NCBI GenBank assembly: GCA_024280535.1
Contig: JAJRPY010000057.1
Location: 1 to 11,632, forward strand
Length of the DNA: 11,632 nucleotides
Source of the DNA: Gammaproteobacteria bacterium
GTDB taxonomy: Bacteria; Pseudomonadota; Gammaproteobacteria; PS1; Pseudothioglobaceae
Direction: 5' to 3'
Below the pieces are notes generated by a model, which was not told the origin of the DNA, did no database searches, and saw nothing but the letters and a program-made list of their open reading frames with translations. This document shows positions 1 through 4,212 of this stretch, one piece after another (position 1 is the stretch's first letter; each line of letters opens with the position of its first letter). The translations under genes and the position numbers were made by a program.

Positions 1-1076
1 AATAATGAGTTAGCAAATGACTTGCTACAATTGGAAAAAAATAAACGCCAACAAAATAACTTAGCGTAAAAAATGCAATAGCTTGATGTTGCTTATGCTT
101 GCTGGATATTTTGACCGAATAGGTTTTTATTAAAGGGTAAGCCAACCCATACGAAATGCCTATAAGAGTGGCACTGACGCTATACATAAGGCTATTGTTA
201 ACATTAAATAATAGCAACGACAAACCGACAATCATCAATAATAAAATTAGTGGTAGCTTTTTTTACAGGGTTATTTTTAGCAAGCACACCGCCAAAAAAT
301 ACCCTGCTTAATATCACAGATAATGTATAGAAAATAAAGAATAAGGAATATTCCAGCATTCTTTCTTTGGCATACTGTACCTGAAAAGTCATCATTACAG
401 AAAACACACAAGCGCCTAAAAACACCATGGTAAAAGCAGTATTAGATTTTTCTTTTAGAATGGAAAAATCTATTTTTTGAATTTTAATGGATACCTTTTC
501 TCGGTTAATAGCAAACAAGCGTCCAAGATATAAAAATAGCAATGCACTGATTAACGATGAAATAAACGCCGTTTGATATAATAATTGCAAAGAATAACTA
601 GCACCTAATTGTGTTGTTATATTGTAAATAACGGGCAAAGTTGCCGTCCCAATGACAATAAATACTGAAATTAAACTTAAATATTTCCCTCGGTCGTCGT
701 CTTTAATTAAAGAGCTAAGTACAATCATTGAGGAAGATGCGTGATAAAAACTCCACCCCAATCCAATAAATATTGCAATTAAATAATAAACATAATCCAT
801 CTTATCAAGAAAGGACATAGCCAATAAACTAATGCCACATAATAAAACCCCCACAGATGATACAACATGCGCGCCATATTTTTTTGAGATACTGCCAGAC
901 ATACCAACCATCAAAACGCTAGCCACACCTGAAAATACTAAAAAATGACCAAAATCAATCACACTGCCAGATAAATTAATTTGGGTGTATTCAATTAGTA
1001 AATAGATACTGCCATAAGCAAAAGCAGCCAAATAACATGCGATGAATAAATAGTGTTCTTTTTTTATGCTAGTCAT
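1..1076 (-). pseudogene. MFS transporter, frameshifted, 3' end cut by window edge
   Basis: An inner-membrane major facilitator superfamily transporter; the substrate cannot be told. The first frame (ATG at 1076 down to TAA at 204) gives about eight membrane helices, a motif-A-like loop between helices 2 and 3 (GSISKKYGA, residues about 61-69) and a charged DDDRGK loop after helix 4. Near residue 270 it turns into non-transporter sequence and stops. The other frame resumes exactly there, at an A7 run (258-264), as KLPLILLLMIVGLSLLLFN, and stays open to position 1 with helices 9-11 (for example SATLIGISYGLAYPL and FTLSYFVGVYFFPIV). Removing one A restores a continuous protein of at least 358 residues, near the usual 390-400. 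This is a one-base insertion, transcriptional slippage or a sequencing error. A second A7 run lies in codons 4-6. No clear Shine-Dalgarno precedes the ATG. Family call is firm; functional state is not. Confidence 0.85.
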
Positions 1077-1211
1077 AATTTTTTGAGTATGTTAAATCAT
1101 ACCAAATTTTTAATACGAAATTAAATTCAAAATTACAAGTGGACTCTTTTAAAAATAAAAAATTGTTGGTATGCTGAGTTAGAAGGATGATACCATCTGT
1201 TCTTTAAAATA

Positions 1212-1240
1212 AGTAAAATTTAGTAAAATTTAGTAAAAAA
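1212..1240. repeat. 10-bp AT-rich tandem repeat
   Basis: AGTAAAATTT is present twice in tandem (1212-1221 and 1222-1231), followed by a degraded third copy AGTAAAAAAA. It sits in the 222-bp gap between the transporter start and the plus-strand ORF. It could be a slippage product or an A-tract upstream element. I see no gene in this gap. Confidence 0.6.
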
Positions 1241-1259
1241 AGACTTGTATTTTCTAAAA

Positions 1260-1298
1260 AATAACTATAAAATAGTATTTTTTATTAAATTAGTTATT
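1260..1298. other. Inverted repeat abutting the start codon at 1299
   Basis: AATAACTA (1260-1267) is perfectly complementary to TAGTTATT (1291-1298), so the two enclose 23 bases and end directly before the ATG at 1299. In RNA this could form a hairpin that hides the start region. The right arm continues into GTTATTA (1293-1299), the same heptamer found at the right end of the attC-like site at 2167-2251, so it may also be the remnant of a cassette boundary. The inner arms do not resemble attC sequence, so this reading is weak. Confidence 0.35.
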
Positions 1299-2144
1299 AT
1301 GAATATACGATACCAGTTGTCACAAGCAGAAATAATTTTTGAAGATGTTGCATTTCTTATTGCCAAAGGAGCTTCTGCAAAAGATATTCACTCAAATATA
1401 ATCAAGGGGTTAATAGTTTTGTCAGATATTAAGAAATCAATATTAACGCAAGATATTAAAGAAGAAAAACCTAATCAAAGTGAATCTGACGAAGTAGAAA
1501 AAGTACAAAGAAGATTAAAGTTATGGAGTAAGCCAGAAAGACAACAAAATATTAACTCTCAAATATTAAATGCATTTTTAAAATTAAGACAGTCTGGTGA
1601 AAAACATATAACAGAAATTGATATTCAAAATAAATTGAAAAATGTAGATGATTTTAAAAATAATTTTGATCAAATGAAAAATATTGCTGAGAAAAATCAC
1701 GGTAAAGTTTTTGAACAAAATGGAGGTCAAATTGAGATATGGGAGCCAGTAAGTTTGCTTGTATCTGAATATGAGATAACGGTATTTCAAAAAATAAAAC
1801 CACATGACATAACAAATCATTCCAGTCAGCCACTAACGCATAGGATGAATTCAGGCGTTCATAGTATGGAGCAAAAATTCAAAAATTGGCTGATTAAACA
1901 AGGGTATTCAGAACCAGGTGCAGTGAATAGCTATCCTCAAGCCATCCCGAAAATATCAGAACATTACTCAAGGCGCACAGGAAAGACTGTAGATATTTAT
2001 TCTGTAACAGATCAAAATATAATTAGCCAAATCGCCCATGATTATAGTCAATCAGGACAATTTGCGCAATTTGGTTATGAACAGCATAGCAGGTATAGGG
2101 CTGCTATTTCAAGATACTCAGAATTCTTTGCTTATAAAGGTTAG
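1299..2144 (+). CDS. Hypothetical protein, probable fusion of two gene-cassette ORFs
   Basis: Function not recognised. The frame is open from a TTG at 1245, but the ATG at 1299 is the better start (281 residues) because the 18 upstream codons are low-complexity AT-rich sequence. No Shine-Dalgarno is visible. Residues 1-55 are helical, 56-80 are a charged linker, and about 82-152 look like a small winged-helix-type domain (INSQILNAFLKL, HITEIDI, NHGKVFEQNGGQIEIW). Residues 170-189 (ITNHSSQPLTHRMNSGVHS) are encoded by an attC-like site, and 190-281 start with a Met and form a separate alpha-helical domain. That domain resembles the core-binding (SAM-like) N-terminal domain of tyrosine recombinases, but no catalytic domain follows. 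The simplest reading is two cassette genes joined by loss of the first stop. Base composition is more AT-rich than the core genes to the right. Confidence 0.7.
   Translation: MNIRYQLSQAEIIFEDVAFLIAKGASAKDIHSNIIKGLIVLSDIKKSILTQDIKEEKPNQSESDEVEKVQRRLKLWSKPERQQNINSQILNAFLKLRQSGEKHITEIDIQNKLKNVDDFKNNFDQMKNIAEKNHGKVFEQNGGQIEIWEPVSLLVSEYEITVFQKIKPHDITNHSSQPLTHRMNSGVHSMEQKFKNWLIKQGYSEPGAVNSYPQAIPKISEHYSRRTGKTVDIYSVTDQNIISQIAHDYSQSGQFAQFGYEQHSRYRAAISRYSEFFAYKG
1807..1863 (+). other. attC-like integron recombination site 1 (inside the ORF)
   Basis: This 57-bp element has the layout of a short attC (59-base element). The left end is ACATAAC (R''-like, RYYYAAC) followed by AAATCATTCCAG. The right end is GAATTCAGGC followed by GTTCATA (R'-like). 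From memory, aadA-type attC sites read TAACAATTCGTTCAAGCC on the left and CTTAACTCAAGCGTTAG on the right, and about 13 of 17 positions agree on each side. The arms pair imperfectly (TCA 1826-1828 with TGA 1846-1848; CC 1830-1831 with GG 1843-1844; AAC with GTT). R' does not fit GTTRRRY well, so the site may be decayed. An ATG (1866) begins 2 bp after its end, as is typical of cassettes. Confidence 0.55.
1866..2144 (+). CDS. Putative stand-alone cassette ORF, core-binding-like domain, 92 aa
   Basis: This is an alternative, shorter reading of the 3' third of the ORF above, in the same frame. ATG 1866 lies just behind the right end of attC-like site 1, and the TAG at 2142-2144 lies about 22 bp before attC-like site 2, so the unit has the anatomy of one integron gene cassette. 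The product (MEQKFKNWLIKQGYSEPGAV to ISRYSEFFAYKG) is a compact helical domain with an F-x-x-WL-x-x-x-G-x-S pattern and a later RYRAAISRYSEFF helix. This resembles the DNA-binding core-binding domain of tyrosine recombinases, which is also found attached to some restriction-type proteins. No catalytic residues are present. A weak AGG (1853-1855) lies 10 bases before the ATG. Function unknown. Confidence 0.45.
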   Translation: MEQKFKNWLIKQGYSEPGAVNSYPQAIPKISEHYSRRTGKTVDIYSVTDQNIISQIAHDYSQSGQFAQFGYEQHSRYRAAISRYSEFFAYKG

Positions 2145-2166
2145 TAAAATAGTTGTTAGAAAAAAC

Positions 2167-2251
2167 ACATAACAAATCATTTAATCCGATCGTTTGATAG
2201 GTTGTAGCACTTTACTCCGTATAAAGTAGTCGGTTGATTCGAATGTTATTA
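2167..2251 (+). other. attC-like integron recombination site 2
   Basis: An 85-bp imperfect palindrome in the 144-bp gap between two convergent genes. Outer arms ATAACA (2169-2174) and TGTTAT (2244-2249) pair perfectly, inner arms CCGA (2186-2189) and TCGG (2230-2233) pair, and a central hairpin ACTTTA/TAAAGT (2209-2214, 2222-2227) fills the middle. The left sequence TAACAAATCATTTAATCCGA matches the remembered aadA-type TAACAATTCATTCAAGCCGA at 17 of 20 positions; the right side CGGTTGATTCGAATGTTA also resembles CGGCTTAACTCAAGCGTTA. R'' is ACATAAC; R' is GTTATTA, a poor fit to GTTRRRY. Orientation is ambiguous: read on the minus strand the R' would be GTTATGT, a better fit. The plus reading is favoured by the 15 bases shared with site 1. 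Confidence 0.6.
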
Positions 2252-2288
2252 GACACACAAAAAATAAACAATTTGCGCTATCTCCTTT

Positions 2289-3146
2289 TTATATGTTTGG
2301 TTTTCTTAATTGTTGAATCGTTTCTATGGTTAGTCCAGTTTTCAAGGCGATGGTTTCGTTGTCTAGGAGATCCAGGAGATTTTTAGCAACTGTAAGCACG
2401 CCTTGCTCAATACCTTGCTCAATACCTTGCTCAATACCCTTGTTTTTGGCAGTTTGTAGGGCATTTATATCATCAAATTCTTTTAATGAAACATAGTCGT
2501 AAATTTCTAACTCCTGTTTATTCCAAGTGGTTTGGGTGGCGACGTTAAAGGCTTCTTTAAAATCTTTATGTTGGTAGTTTTCAGGAATCATGGTCAGGTT
2601 TTCTACATTTTTGATGAAGTAAATCCATTTATCCAAGATGCTTTTGAGTGCTTCTAAGTCCTTGTTGAATTTAGGCAGTTCAATAAAACTAAATTCAAAA
2701 TCACTCAGGTCTTGAAGGCCGGTTTCTTGGTTGATAATCAGGTGACGGGAGATAAAATTTGGATGTTCAAAAATAATAAAGTTGACAATGCCAATAAAAT
2801 AGACTTTTTTGAGTTTGTTGTAGTCATTGCCTTTGTCTAATTGATTGACGTAGGCTTTTGAGGTGTAGTATAGGCTGCGTTTGTTGAAGTTACCTAAGTC
2901 TTTTCTTTGCATCTCAACGATAAAGGTATTGCCTTTTTGATTGGTGGCTTTGATGTCAAGGATGGTTTCTTTGAGTTCGGGAATTTTTGGGACTTGGTAG
3001 GGATTGGCCAGTGTTACCGCGACAATGGTATTGTCTCCGCTGAAATCAAGTACGGCATTGAGAAAGGAAATAAGGATATTTTTATGTTGGTCGTTGCCAA
3101 ATATTTTTTTGAAAGCGATATCGTTTTTTGGGTCAGCGAATTTCAT
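2289..3146 (-). CDS. Rpn-family PD-(D/E)XK nuclease (transposase_31-like)
   Basis: A 285-residue member of the Rpn / PDDEXK family, long annotated as recombination-promoting nuclease or putative transposase; E. coli relatives are DNA endonucleases tied to phage defence. The N-terminus MKFADPKNDIAFKKIFG is the family signature, which fixes the ATG at 3146. The nuclease core is ILDIKA (D64) followed by IVEMQR (E78, Q80), the D-x13-E-x-Q form of the active site. Family features SLYYTSKAYVNQL (residues 91-103) and YFIGIVNFIIF (116-126) follow. Residues 237-248 are GIEQ repeated three times from a 12-bp DNA repeat, leading into a short helical C-terminus. A TATAAT (3185-3180) lies 34 nt upstream and there is no Shine-Dalgarno. 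It points toward the attC-like site at 2167-2251 and may be a cassette gene itself. Confidence 0.85.
   Translation of the reverse strand: MKFADPKNDIAFKKIFGNDQHKNILISFLNAVLDFSGDNTIVAVTLANPYQVPKIPELKETILDIKATNQKGNTFIVEMQRKDLGNFNKRSLYYTSKAYVNQLDKGNDYNKLKKVYFIGIVNFIIFEHPNFISRHLIINQETGLQDLSDFEFSFIELPKFNKDLEALKSILDKWIYFIKNVENLTMIPENYQHKDFKEAFNVATQTTWNKQELEIYDYVSLKEFDDINALQTAKNKGIEQGIEQGIEQGVLTVAKNLLDLLDNETIALKTGLTIETIQQLRKPNI
2402..2437. repeat. 12-bp tandem repeat, 3 copies, in the Rpn gene
   Basis: CTTGCTCAATAC is repeated exactly three times (2402-2413, 2414-2425, 2426-2437), with CTTG recurring just after it. On the minus strand each unit encodes GIEQ, so gain or loss of copies would keep the frame and change only the linker length before the C-terminal helix. 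Confidence 0.9.
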
Positions 3147-3179
3147 TTGTAGTGGTTGGTTGGGGTGATTTTGGGGTTT

Positions 3180-3185
3180 ATTATA
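3180..3185 (-). promoter_or_regulatory. Probable -10 box of the Rpn gene
   Basis: A perfect TATAAT on the minus strand, with a poor AT-rich -35 region. A start near 3173 would give a leader of about 27 nt before the ATG at 3146. Everything between the -10 box and the ATG lacks G on the transcribed-sense strand, and there is no ribosome binding site. Confidence 0.4.
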
Positions 3186-3264
3186 TCATTGATGCTGATG
3201 TTATTATTAATCGTGTGAAAAATCAAAATTGTTCTGTGCAATAACGTTGGCTTTTATAACAAGT

Positions 3265-3292
3265 AACTAATTGGCAAAAAAAACCAATAGTT
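3265..3292 (-). terminator. Stem-loop at the miaA stop codon, possible weak terminator
   Basis: AACTAATTGG (3265-3274) and CCAATAGTT (3284-3292) pair over nine base pairs with one bulged A, around a loop containing A8 on the plus strand. It overlaps the last base of the miaA TAA. On the miaA transcript the U run is in the loop rather than after the stem, so it is not a textbook intrinsic terminator. It may still protect or end the mRNA. Confidence 0.35.
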
Positions 3293-4212
3293 TACGGATT
3301 TTGAATAAAGTGAAGGGCTTTTTTTATGTCGGCAGTGGCTAATAAAAGTGCGTTGGTTTCGTGTTTTAGCCATGTGCTTTGGCGTTTGCAAAGTTGGCGA
3401 GTGGCAATGATTGATTTTTCGATCATGGTTTGTTCGTCTATTTCGTTGTTTAAAAATTGCCAGGCTTGGCGGTAGCCTACGCAGCGAATTGAGGGTAAAT
3501 CTTGATGCAGGTTTTTGTCTTTTTTTAGGGCGTTCACTTCTTGTATAAAGCCTTGTTTTAGCATGGTGTGGAAGCGTGTTTCAATGCGTTGATGGAGTAG
3601 GGTGCGATCTGGCATTAGGATAATTTTTTTGATGTGGTGGTTAAGTCCACCTTGTTTGTTGCCTTGTAATTCGGTTAAGGTTTGTCCGCTAATATCAAAT
3701 ACTTCTAGGGCGCGCGTAATTCGTTGGGAGTCGTTTGGGTGAATGCGTTGAGCGGCGATAGGGTCGATGGATTTGAGTGTTTTGTGGAGTAATTCAGCGC
3801 CTTGTTCTTTGAGTAGTTGGGTGTATTTTTGTCGAGATTTTGTGGTGGATTCTGGTAGATTTGACAAGCCGTATTCCAAGGCATTAAAGTAAAACGAAGT
3901 GCCGCCTACTAAAATGGGCAGGGTGTGATTGGCCAAGGCTAGCTCAATTTGCTTATTCGCATCAAGCATAAAATCACGTGCGGAATAGGCATCACCGGGT
4001 TCGCAAATGTTGATTAAATGATGTGGGTGTTTTAGCAAGGTTTGCGCGTCAGGCTTTGCGGTGCCAATATTCATACGTTTGTAAATTAGGGCAGAATCGA
4101 CACTGATTAAGCGAGCGTTTAGTTGTTTGCTGATGTCAATGGCAAAGTCGGTTTTGCCAGAAGCAGTGGGGCCCATTAAAAAAAGTACAGTATTGGTAGG
4201 AGGGTTTTGCAC
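3292..4212 (-). CDS. miaA: tRNA dimethylallyltransferase
   Basis: MiaA transfers a dimethylallyl group from DMAPP to N6 of A37 in tRNAs reading UNN codons, in the cytoplasm. The 306 residues are the normal length. Visible marks are the P-loop GPTASGKT (14-21), the DSALIYKRMNIGTAKP segment (catalytic Asp and tRNA contact), HHLINICEPGDAYSARDF, PILVGGTSFYFNAL, QRITRALEVF and GYRQAW near the C-terminus. The start is a GTG at 4212: an AAGGA Shine-Dalgarno lies 5 nt before it, and no ATG precedes the P-loop. A CTGACA-16-TATAAT promoter lies just upstream. In many gammaproteobacteria hfq and hflX follow miaA; here a stem-loop and then the accessory stretch follow instead. Identification is secure. 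Confidence 0.97.
   Translation of the reverse strand: MQNPPTNTVLFLMGPTASGKTDFAIDISKQLNARLISVDSALIYKRMNIGTAKPDAQTLLKHPHHLINICEPGDAYSARDFMLDANKQIELALANHTLPILVGGTSFYFNALEYGLSNLPESTTKSRQKYTQLLKEQGAELLHKTLKSIDPIAAQRIHPNDSQRITRALEVFDISGQTLTELQGNKQGGLNHHIKKIILMPDRTLLHQRIETRFHTMLKQGFIQEVNALKKDKNLHQDLPSIRCVGYRQAWQFLNNEIDEQTMIEKSIIATRQLCKRQSTWLKHETNALLLATADIKKALHFIQNP

Follow-up and report, generated by a model that had tools for sequence, protein, structure and literature searches.

Described Counterparts of the Locus

Recombination at attC sites proceeds by a cut at G^TT, and the core of their R' box follows the consensus GTTRRRY. Arrays of at least two attC sites without a neighbouring intI are termed CALINs in the available texts of PMC10295459 and PMC12444791; the former, in the same portion, credits the symbiont of Bathymodiolus septemdierum with four CALINs and one In0, and the symbiont of B. 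thermophilus with three CALINs. Similarly, CALINs away from intI are described for Xanthomonas in the available text of PMC12444791, where insertion at attG sites is cited. Moreover, the accessible part of PMC12901181 describes delta-attI gene cassettes of class 1 and class 2 integrons, in which a partial attI replaces the attC site downstream of a gene.

The locus under study lies in a window of 11,632 bases, which is the whole of contig C92 of genome G000 (1.27 Mb, 177 contigs, 83% complete). The host is a SUP05-family (Thioglobus-like) gammaproteobacterium; Candidatus Thioglobus is assigned to the Pseudothioglobaceae by the NCBI taxonomy. For comparison, a family set of 83 genomes, presumably all contained in a wider set of 145 relatives, and a genus set of 12 genomes (G000 and 11 mates) were used. 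Judged from its sequence, the feature is very probably a small, eroding, integron-derived array of two cassettes, in which gene A is followed by attC site 1 and a truncated gene B by attC site 2; the best reading is that of an eroding two-cassette CALIN or of the far end of an array on contig C70 of the same genome. Because one site and one gene are decaying and an integrase gene resides on another contig of the same genome, the element is regarded as a degraded example of an already described type, in a lineage known to carry such arrays.

Like a CALIN, the window has two attC-type sites on one strand, with cassette genes before and between them, and no intI in the contig; unlike a CALIN, it contains in site 1 an attC that has decayed beyond the folding seen in related sites, and only 1.8 kb of sequence is available on the left side, so that an intI may lie just beyond it. 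In terms of the parts found, contig C92 holds one strong and one weak attC, while the components of a complete integron are spread over separate contigs, intI and an attI-like sequence being on C70 and attC on C92. The 57-bp attC sites of the SUP05 family, which occur near intI in G060, G063, G022, and G062 and without an intact intI in G043, have the same length as site 1, align with it without gaps, and share its outer left arm, whereas the inner stem and the outer R' bases are changed in the window. Insertion of cassettes at attG sites, reportedly described by Loot et al. in 2024, is comparable to the family pattern in that cassettes lie away from intI at many chromosomal places; it would differ in that part of the family's dispersed arrays start with attI-like sequence. 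The delta-attI cassettes resemble the family pattern in that attI-derived sequence is found away from its usual place beside intI; however, in the available text of PMC12901181 the partial attI lies within an array, whereas the attI-like copies of the family stand before separate chromosomal arrays. In the open-licence literature, no title on dispersed attI copies in the SUP05 family was found.

Surroundings of the Array

To the left of the array, a gene for an MFS transporter (204–1076, minus strand) runs against the cassettes and is found in only one of the 12 genus genomes, namely its own, with no match at E ≤ 1e-20 in the 11 genus mates. This gene (2–238 and 204–1076, minus strand) seems to go on in another frame after about position 238 and may be frameshifted. 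On the right flank, a gene of the Rpn family of recombination-promoting nucleases/putative transposases (2289–3146, minus strand) is followed by the conserved neighbour miaA (3292–4212, minus strand), which is present in all 12 genus genomes, with murD directly next to it in 10 of the 11 mates and not in G006. Three tandem 12-bp units (CCTTGCTCAATA) are held within the Rpn-family gene at 2401–2438. In none of the 11 mates did the up to 1500 bases after miaA show blastn similarity to window positions 1–3290; as both this stretch and the MFS gene are absent from the genus mates, the array is considered to lie in a variable stretch. Likewise, no empty site for the array was found among the 11 genus mates, because they lack the region.

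The Two attC-Type Sites

The first-pass annotation had reported two copies of a 15-bp sequence, ACATAACAAATCATT, at 1807–1821 and 2167–2181, 360 bp apart, each followed by a right-hand half to give spans of 57 and 85 bp, and all of these elements are present in the sequence as described, with the right halves GGATGAATTCAGGCGTT at 1843–1859 and GGTTGATTCGAATGTT at 2232–2247. Taken by itself, the 15-bp repeat could well be due to chance, because 62 of the 300 dinucleotide-shuffled versions of the window also contain one or more repeated 15-mers, and it is the comparison with relatives that supplies significance; the remaining repeated 15-mers of the window lie inside two short tandem repeats. 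For this comparison, a covariance model (R1) was prepared from six 57-bp attC sites of relatives, with the window excluded; these sites lie near intI in G060, G063, G022, and G062, while those taken from G043 flank gene A. The first-pass annotation had suggested a resemblance to aadA-type attC sites; the likeness tested is one to the family's own 57-bp attC sites. A covariance-model search for attC, of the kind proposed by the first-pass annotation, was made with R1 and returned site 1 strongly and site 2 weakly.

Site 1 (1807–1863, plus strand, 57 bp) is matched by R1 over 1807–1865 at a score of 38.5 bits, corresponding to E values of 3e-9 for the window and 3.3e-7 for the 1.27-Mb genome, and it starts about 11 bp past the usual end of gene A. 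It aligns with the six reference sites without a gap, 32 of the 57 columns being invariant. Its stem retains 8 of 17 Watson–Crick pairs, including 3 of the 7 R pairs, against 14–16 of 17 in the six references, and the decay suspected earlier is thereby supported for this site. The bottom-strand fold gives z = −0.10 (0.14 in a separate run against shuffles), compared with −2.03, −3.99, and −3.80 for the three of the six reference sites that were folded and −1.74 for an 87-bp candidate of G062. Its R' box, GTTCATA, keeps the GTT and does not match RRRY. With few stem pairs and no fold excess in comparison with the references, site 1 is read as a decayed attC, whose recombination activity has probably been lost.

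Site 2 (2167–2251, plus strand, 85 bp) starts 22 bp past the stop of gene B and is matched by R1 at exactly these coordinates with 19.9 bits (E = 0.14 genome-wide and 0.049 over 438 kb of loci); when R1 was run on the window alone with filters off, 2167–2198 at 14.9 bits was returned in place of the full site. In the predicted bottom-strand fold, the outer and inner arms pair, with z = −0.06 (0.08 in a separate run), and the R' box, GTTATTA, again keeps the GTT and does not match RRRY. On this basis site 2 is probably an attC, and its recombination in trans may still be possible. The proposed pair of attC sites is thus well founded for site 1 and probable for site 2, while the bottom-strand folding suggested as a check found neither window site more stable than shuffles. 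Rfam gave no match to the window at gathering score and nothing relevant at E ≤ 10.

Across the family, stem covariation was calculated from 63 matches at 52 loci, and the value of 0.252 exceeds that of shuffled alignments (0.141 ± 0.008; 0 of 500 as high), the alignment leaning towards R1 because it was fitted to R1, with both window sites included. When the stem partners are slid, the share of cells that pair falls from 82% to at most 40%. The count of pairs with changes in both partners is a less clear measure, since 31 of 500 shuffles reach it. A scan for attC by arm complementarity, which served only to choose candidates next to intI, placed neither window site at its cut-off and returned many implausible sites elsewhere. 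When 15 attC sites of differing lengths were aligned, their central parts did not line up correctly, and no model was made from this alignment.

Cassette Genes

The coding part of the first cassette is gene A (1299–1795, plus strand); its relatives end at about this position, and the window frame has no stop there. No left boundary was found for this cassette. The second cassette (1858–2245, plus strand, 388 bp) is delimited by the expected G^TT crossovers after G1857 and after G2245, and contains gene B (1866–2144, plus strand), which corresponds to the first 92 amino acids of a NucS-like (PF01939) family of about 243 amino acids. Gene B lacks the NucS domain that is present in its relative P0014 and is therefore regarded as truncated. 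Both sites follow cassette genes, and the small gene-cassette array proposed from the letters alone is borne out to this extent; by its position between sites 1 and 2, gene B is probably a cassette gene, and it is treated here as a candidate.

A frame without a stop reads through from gene A and attC site 1 into gene B (1299–2144, plus strand), with a length of 281 amino acids from ATG 1299 or 299 amino acids from TTG 1245. A protein search returned 122 relatives at E ≤ 0.001, of which 120 were listed, one being the window's own; among the other 119 listed, 69 match only the gene A half (158–269 amino acids, mostly about 165), 50 match only the gene B half (171–257 amino acids, mostly about 243), and none match both. 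Since each of these listed relatives covers one half, 1299–2144 is taken as two genes read through. In alignments with 13 relatives for each half, gene A usually ends near 1795 and gene B usually starts at 1866, and site 1 fills the gap between them.

Among the matches listed, the relatives of gene A are named "hypothetical protein" where the sources name them. One of them, P0118, also carries a Swt1-like HEPN domain (PF18731), which may point to a function of gene A in defence. In G043 (L048), gene A stands between two 57-bp attC sites, the second of which lies 538 bases before the gene, and it runs into an intact attC at the same point as in the window. Around the gene A relatives of G031 and G022, the surrounding 15.0 and 13.8 kb, respectively, contain no attC match at E ≤ 0.05, and a loose cut-off gives scores near 15 bits only; the similarity 3' of gene A breaks off roughly where the site would begin. 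Because these two relatives have no R1 match at this threshold, gene A is not always beside an attC.

The relatives of gene B, among the matches listed, are, where named, mostly NucS/DUF91 proteins, with Vibrio, Marinobacter, and Candidatus Thioglobus among the hosts; a full-length relative, P0090, is named Candidatus Thioglobus sp. Against plasmid records, gene B gave 19 matches, all below 60% identity, and against viral contigs none. Of 369 class genomes, two gave a match, one being that of the window and the other showing a domain match of 34% identity; it was also found in 3 of the 83 family genomes, namely its own, G043 with an N-terminal match, and G023 with a C-terminal match.

Integrase and attC Sites in the Genome and the Family

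The window contains no intI remnant, and contig C92, which starts 1.8 kb to the left of attC site 1, contains no intI. The first-pass annotation had accordingly seen no integrase; this does not hold for the genome, in which a full-length integron integrase is encoded on contig C70 (381–1334; 420 bits against a cut-off of 265), and the absence from the window may be a contig effect. The proposed search of other contigs thus located intI, together with three candidate attC sites that R1 matches with genome-wide E values: C76:116–171 (28.2 bits, E = 4.3e-4), C98:2213–2269 (24.8 bits, E = 0.0046), and C125:606–654 (21.7 bits, E = 0.038).

The earlier view that such an array was not to be expected in this lineage is not supported. 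At E ≤ 1e-60, intI was found in 29 of the 145 relatives, 28 of them above the intI family cut-off, and 8 of the 29, G000 included, belong to the window's family. R1 matches to attC at E ≤ 0.1, some of them barely so, occur in 28 of the 83 family genomes. Furthermore, IntegronFinder results for a family member are already in print, in the available text of PMC10295459. At one of the family loci (L131, 3037–3553; G014), a gene of the RelE/StbE family, assigned by NCBIfam just above the cut-off, and a small neighbouring frame stand directly before a 57-bp attC; this locus adjoins recA and a RecX-like gene.

Alternative Readings

Among the accounts to be weighed against the preferred reading, the strongest, though an unlikely one, takes the array as the distal end of the C70 integron and its integrase-less appearance as a product of the assembly break only. 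The contig ends allow for this, as C70 ends just past attI, inside the first cassette gene, with its array running off the contig, while C92 starts 1.8 kb to the left of attC site 1 in a genome of 177 contigs. However, the MFS gene, which separates gene A from the left end of the contig, is oriented against the cassettes; C92 goes on into miaA and murC, whereas C70, on the other side of intI, goes on into a TtcA-like gene (its best family match, below the cut-off of that family) and cysE; and relatives hold many attC sites far from intI. Somewhat less probable is the reduction of the locus to one decayed cassette and an unrelated gene fragment, in which only site 1 is an attC and the match at 2167 is a chance or copied fragment. 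Site 2 is indeed weak (19.9 bits, E = 0.14, no fold excess), and a repeated 15-mer is found in the 62 shuffles mentioned above; yet R1 aligns end to end with site 2, and its E value refers to 1.27 Mb on both strands, so that chance would be far lower for a match that shares its strand with a secure attC a few hundred bases away and starts 22 bp past a gene of cassette size.

It is very improbable that the read-through frame encodes a working fusion protein through attC site 1 rather than reflecting a lost stop. The frame does stay open over 281 codons; nevertheless, none of the 119 listed relatives spans both halves, gene B is without its nuclease domain, and the stop would have been lost at an A-rich run (near 1788–1797), where an indel or an assembly effect may be responsible. 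Least credible of all, to the point of being nearly dismissed, is a chance resemblance with no integron element behind it: on first inspection there were only the 15-mer and two loose halves, with unremarkable folds, but an E value of 3.3e-7 over the whole genome, from a model untrained on the window, refutes chance for site 1, and the order of gene A followed by attC recurs in G043.

Proposed Origin of the Array

For the preferred reading of an eroding, integron-derived array of two cassettes, a sequence of events can be proposed. The integron integrase native to the lineage, encoded on C70, would have inserted the cassettes via attC recombination; the array would then have been left behind, either through the loss of a neighbouring intI or as the far end of the C70 array. 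The former option would be in line with the intI pieces that stand beside attI-like copies at other family loci. Mutations may subsequently have broken attC site 1 as well as the gene A stop codon and the 3' portion of gene B.

A broader and tentative scheme, with the probability lying rather against it, is that of a distributed integron, in which one integrase gene serves several attI-headed mini-arrays over the SUP05-family chromosome; these would arise by the copying of the intI–attI head and later lose intI, and the window would represent the last, headless stage with dissolving attC sites. In this scheme, IntI would serve the attI-like copies in trans. To our knowledge, the origin of CALINs has so far mostly been inferred; if the distributed scheme were true, the window would show how CALINs form and die. 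The family may present the stages side by side, that is, intI with attI and cassettes, attI-like sequence with intI pieces, attI-like sequence with cassettes only, and attC alone, the window itself being an ordinary late stage.

Dispersed attI-Like Copies

An attI-like element of about 63 bp is found beside intI and at other cassette loci of the family; it was met in an empty-site test at a cassette locus of G060, in which no clean empty site emerged. In six genomes (G000, G006, G035, G060, G062, and G063), intI has a copy of the element upstream, from which copies a sequence-only model (R2) was prepared, and all except that of G000 end in ...AATAGTT at the expected crossover. In the G000 copy on C70 (L009, 193–261), which is beside the intact intI, the core TATAATGTAAC replaces TAATAGTTA. 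The intact intI genes of G022 and G031 have no R2 match beside them, which counts against the attI reading. R2 matches at E ≤ 0.01, some of them short and weak, occur in 32 of the 83 family genomes, whereas a search of the window with R2 at E ≤ 10 gave no match.

The arrangement of these copies was counted over 12 large chosen replicons, smaller contigs being left out, with attI-like matches taken at E ≤ 1e-6 and attC taken among the matches listed (to E of about 0.009; G014 1285125–1285151 left out). Eleven of the replicons, from 10 genomes, carry 33 attI-like copies, of which 3 are beside an intact intI and 30 are not. Among the attC matches listed, a same-strand attC is located within 3 kb downstream of 16 of the 33 copies (13 of the 30 away from intI), upstream of one, and on the other strand of none, whereas random placement of the copies, with the length of G053 rounded, gave a mean of 0.16 and a maximum of 2 in 2000 trials. 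Conversely, 23 of the 64 attC matches listed have an attI-like copy within 3 kb upstream, and 41 have none. Because attC lies downstream of 13 of the 30 copies away from intI, part of the dispersed arrays is considered to begin with attI-like sequence.

Pieces of intI were detected by tblastn with three intI proteins (E ≤ 1e-3) at 6 of 29 loci (L057, L125, L186, L196, L199, and L200), where they are oriented away from the attI-like copy, matching the layout of an integron; no intI pieces were found at this threshold in the remaining 23 loci. Loci L113–L147 had been fetched for their attC matches and part of L185–L204 for their attI matches, so that the loci are not a whole-replicon sample. At L057 (G043:C1:1270500–1290400), a stretch of about 13 kb contains three intI remnants, all of which have an attI-like copy next to them, and the array with gene A comes after one of these remnants; the intI search at E ≤ 1e-60 did not return G043. 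In G000 itself, two further attI-like copies with TAATAGTTA cores are present at C82:206–268 (L186; 24.1 bits) and C88:5005–5069 (L185; 26.4 bits), and these contigs end about 200 and 520 bases, respectively, behind the copy. With its attI-like copy and the intI pieces found by tblastn, C82 looks like a second, decayed integron.

Two further arrangements were observed among the family loci. At L128 (2995–3110; G031:C1:885994–886109), an attI-like copy sets in immediately at the GTT of an attC, as though it were the beginning of a cassette. Behind the RNase R gene of G060 and at the matching places of G012 and G029 (L154, L156, and L116), all belonging to one genus, an attI-like copy occupies the same place, with differing sequence behind it.
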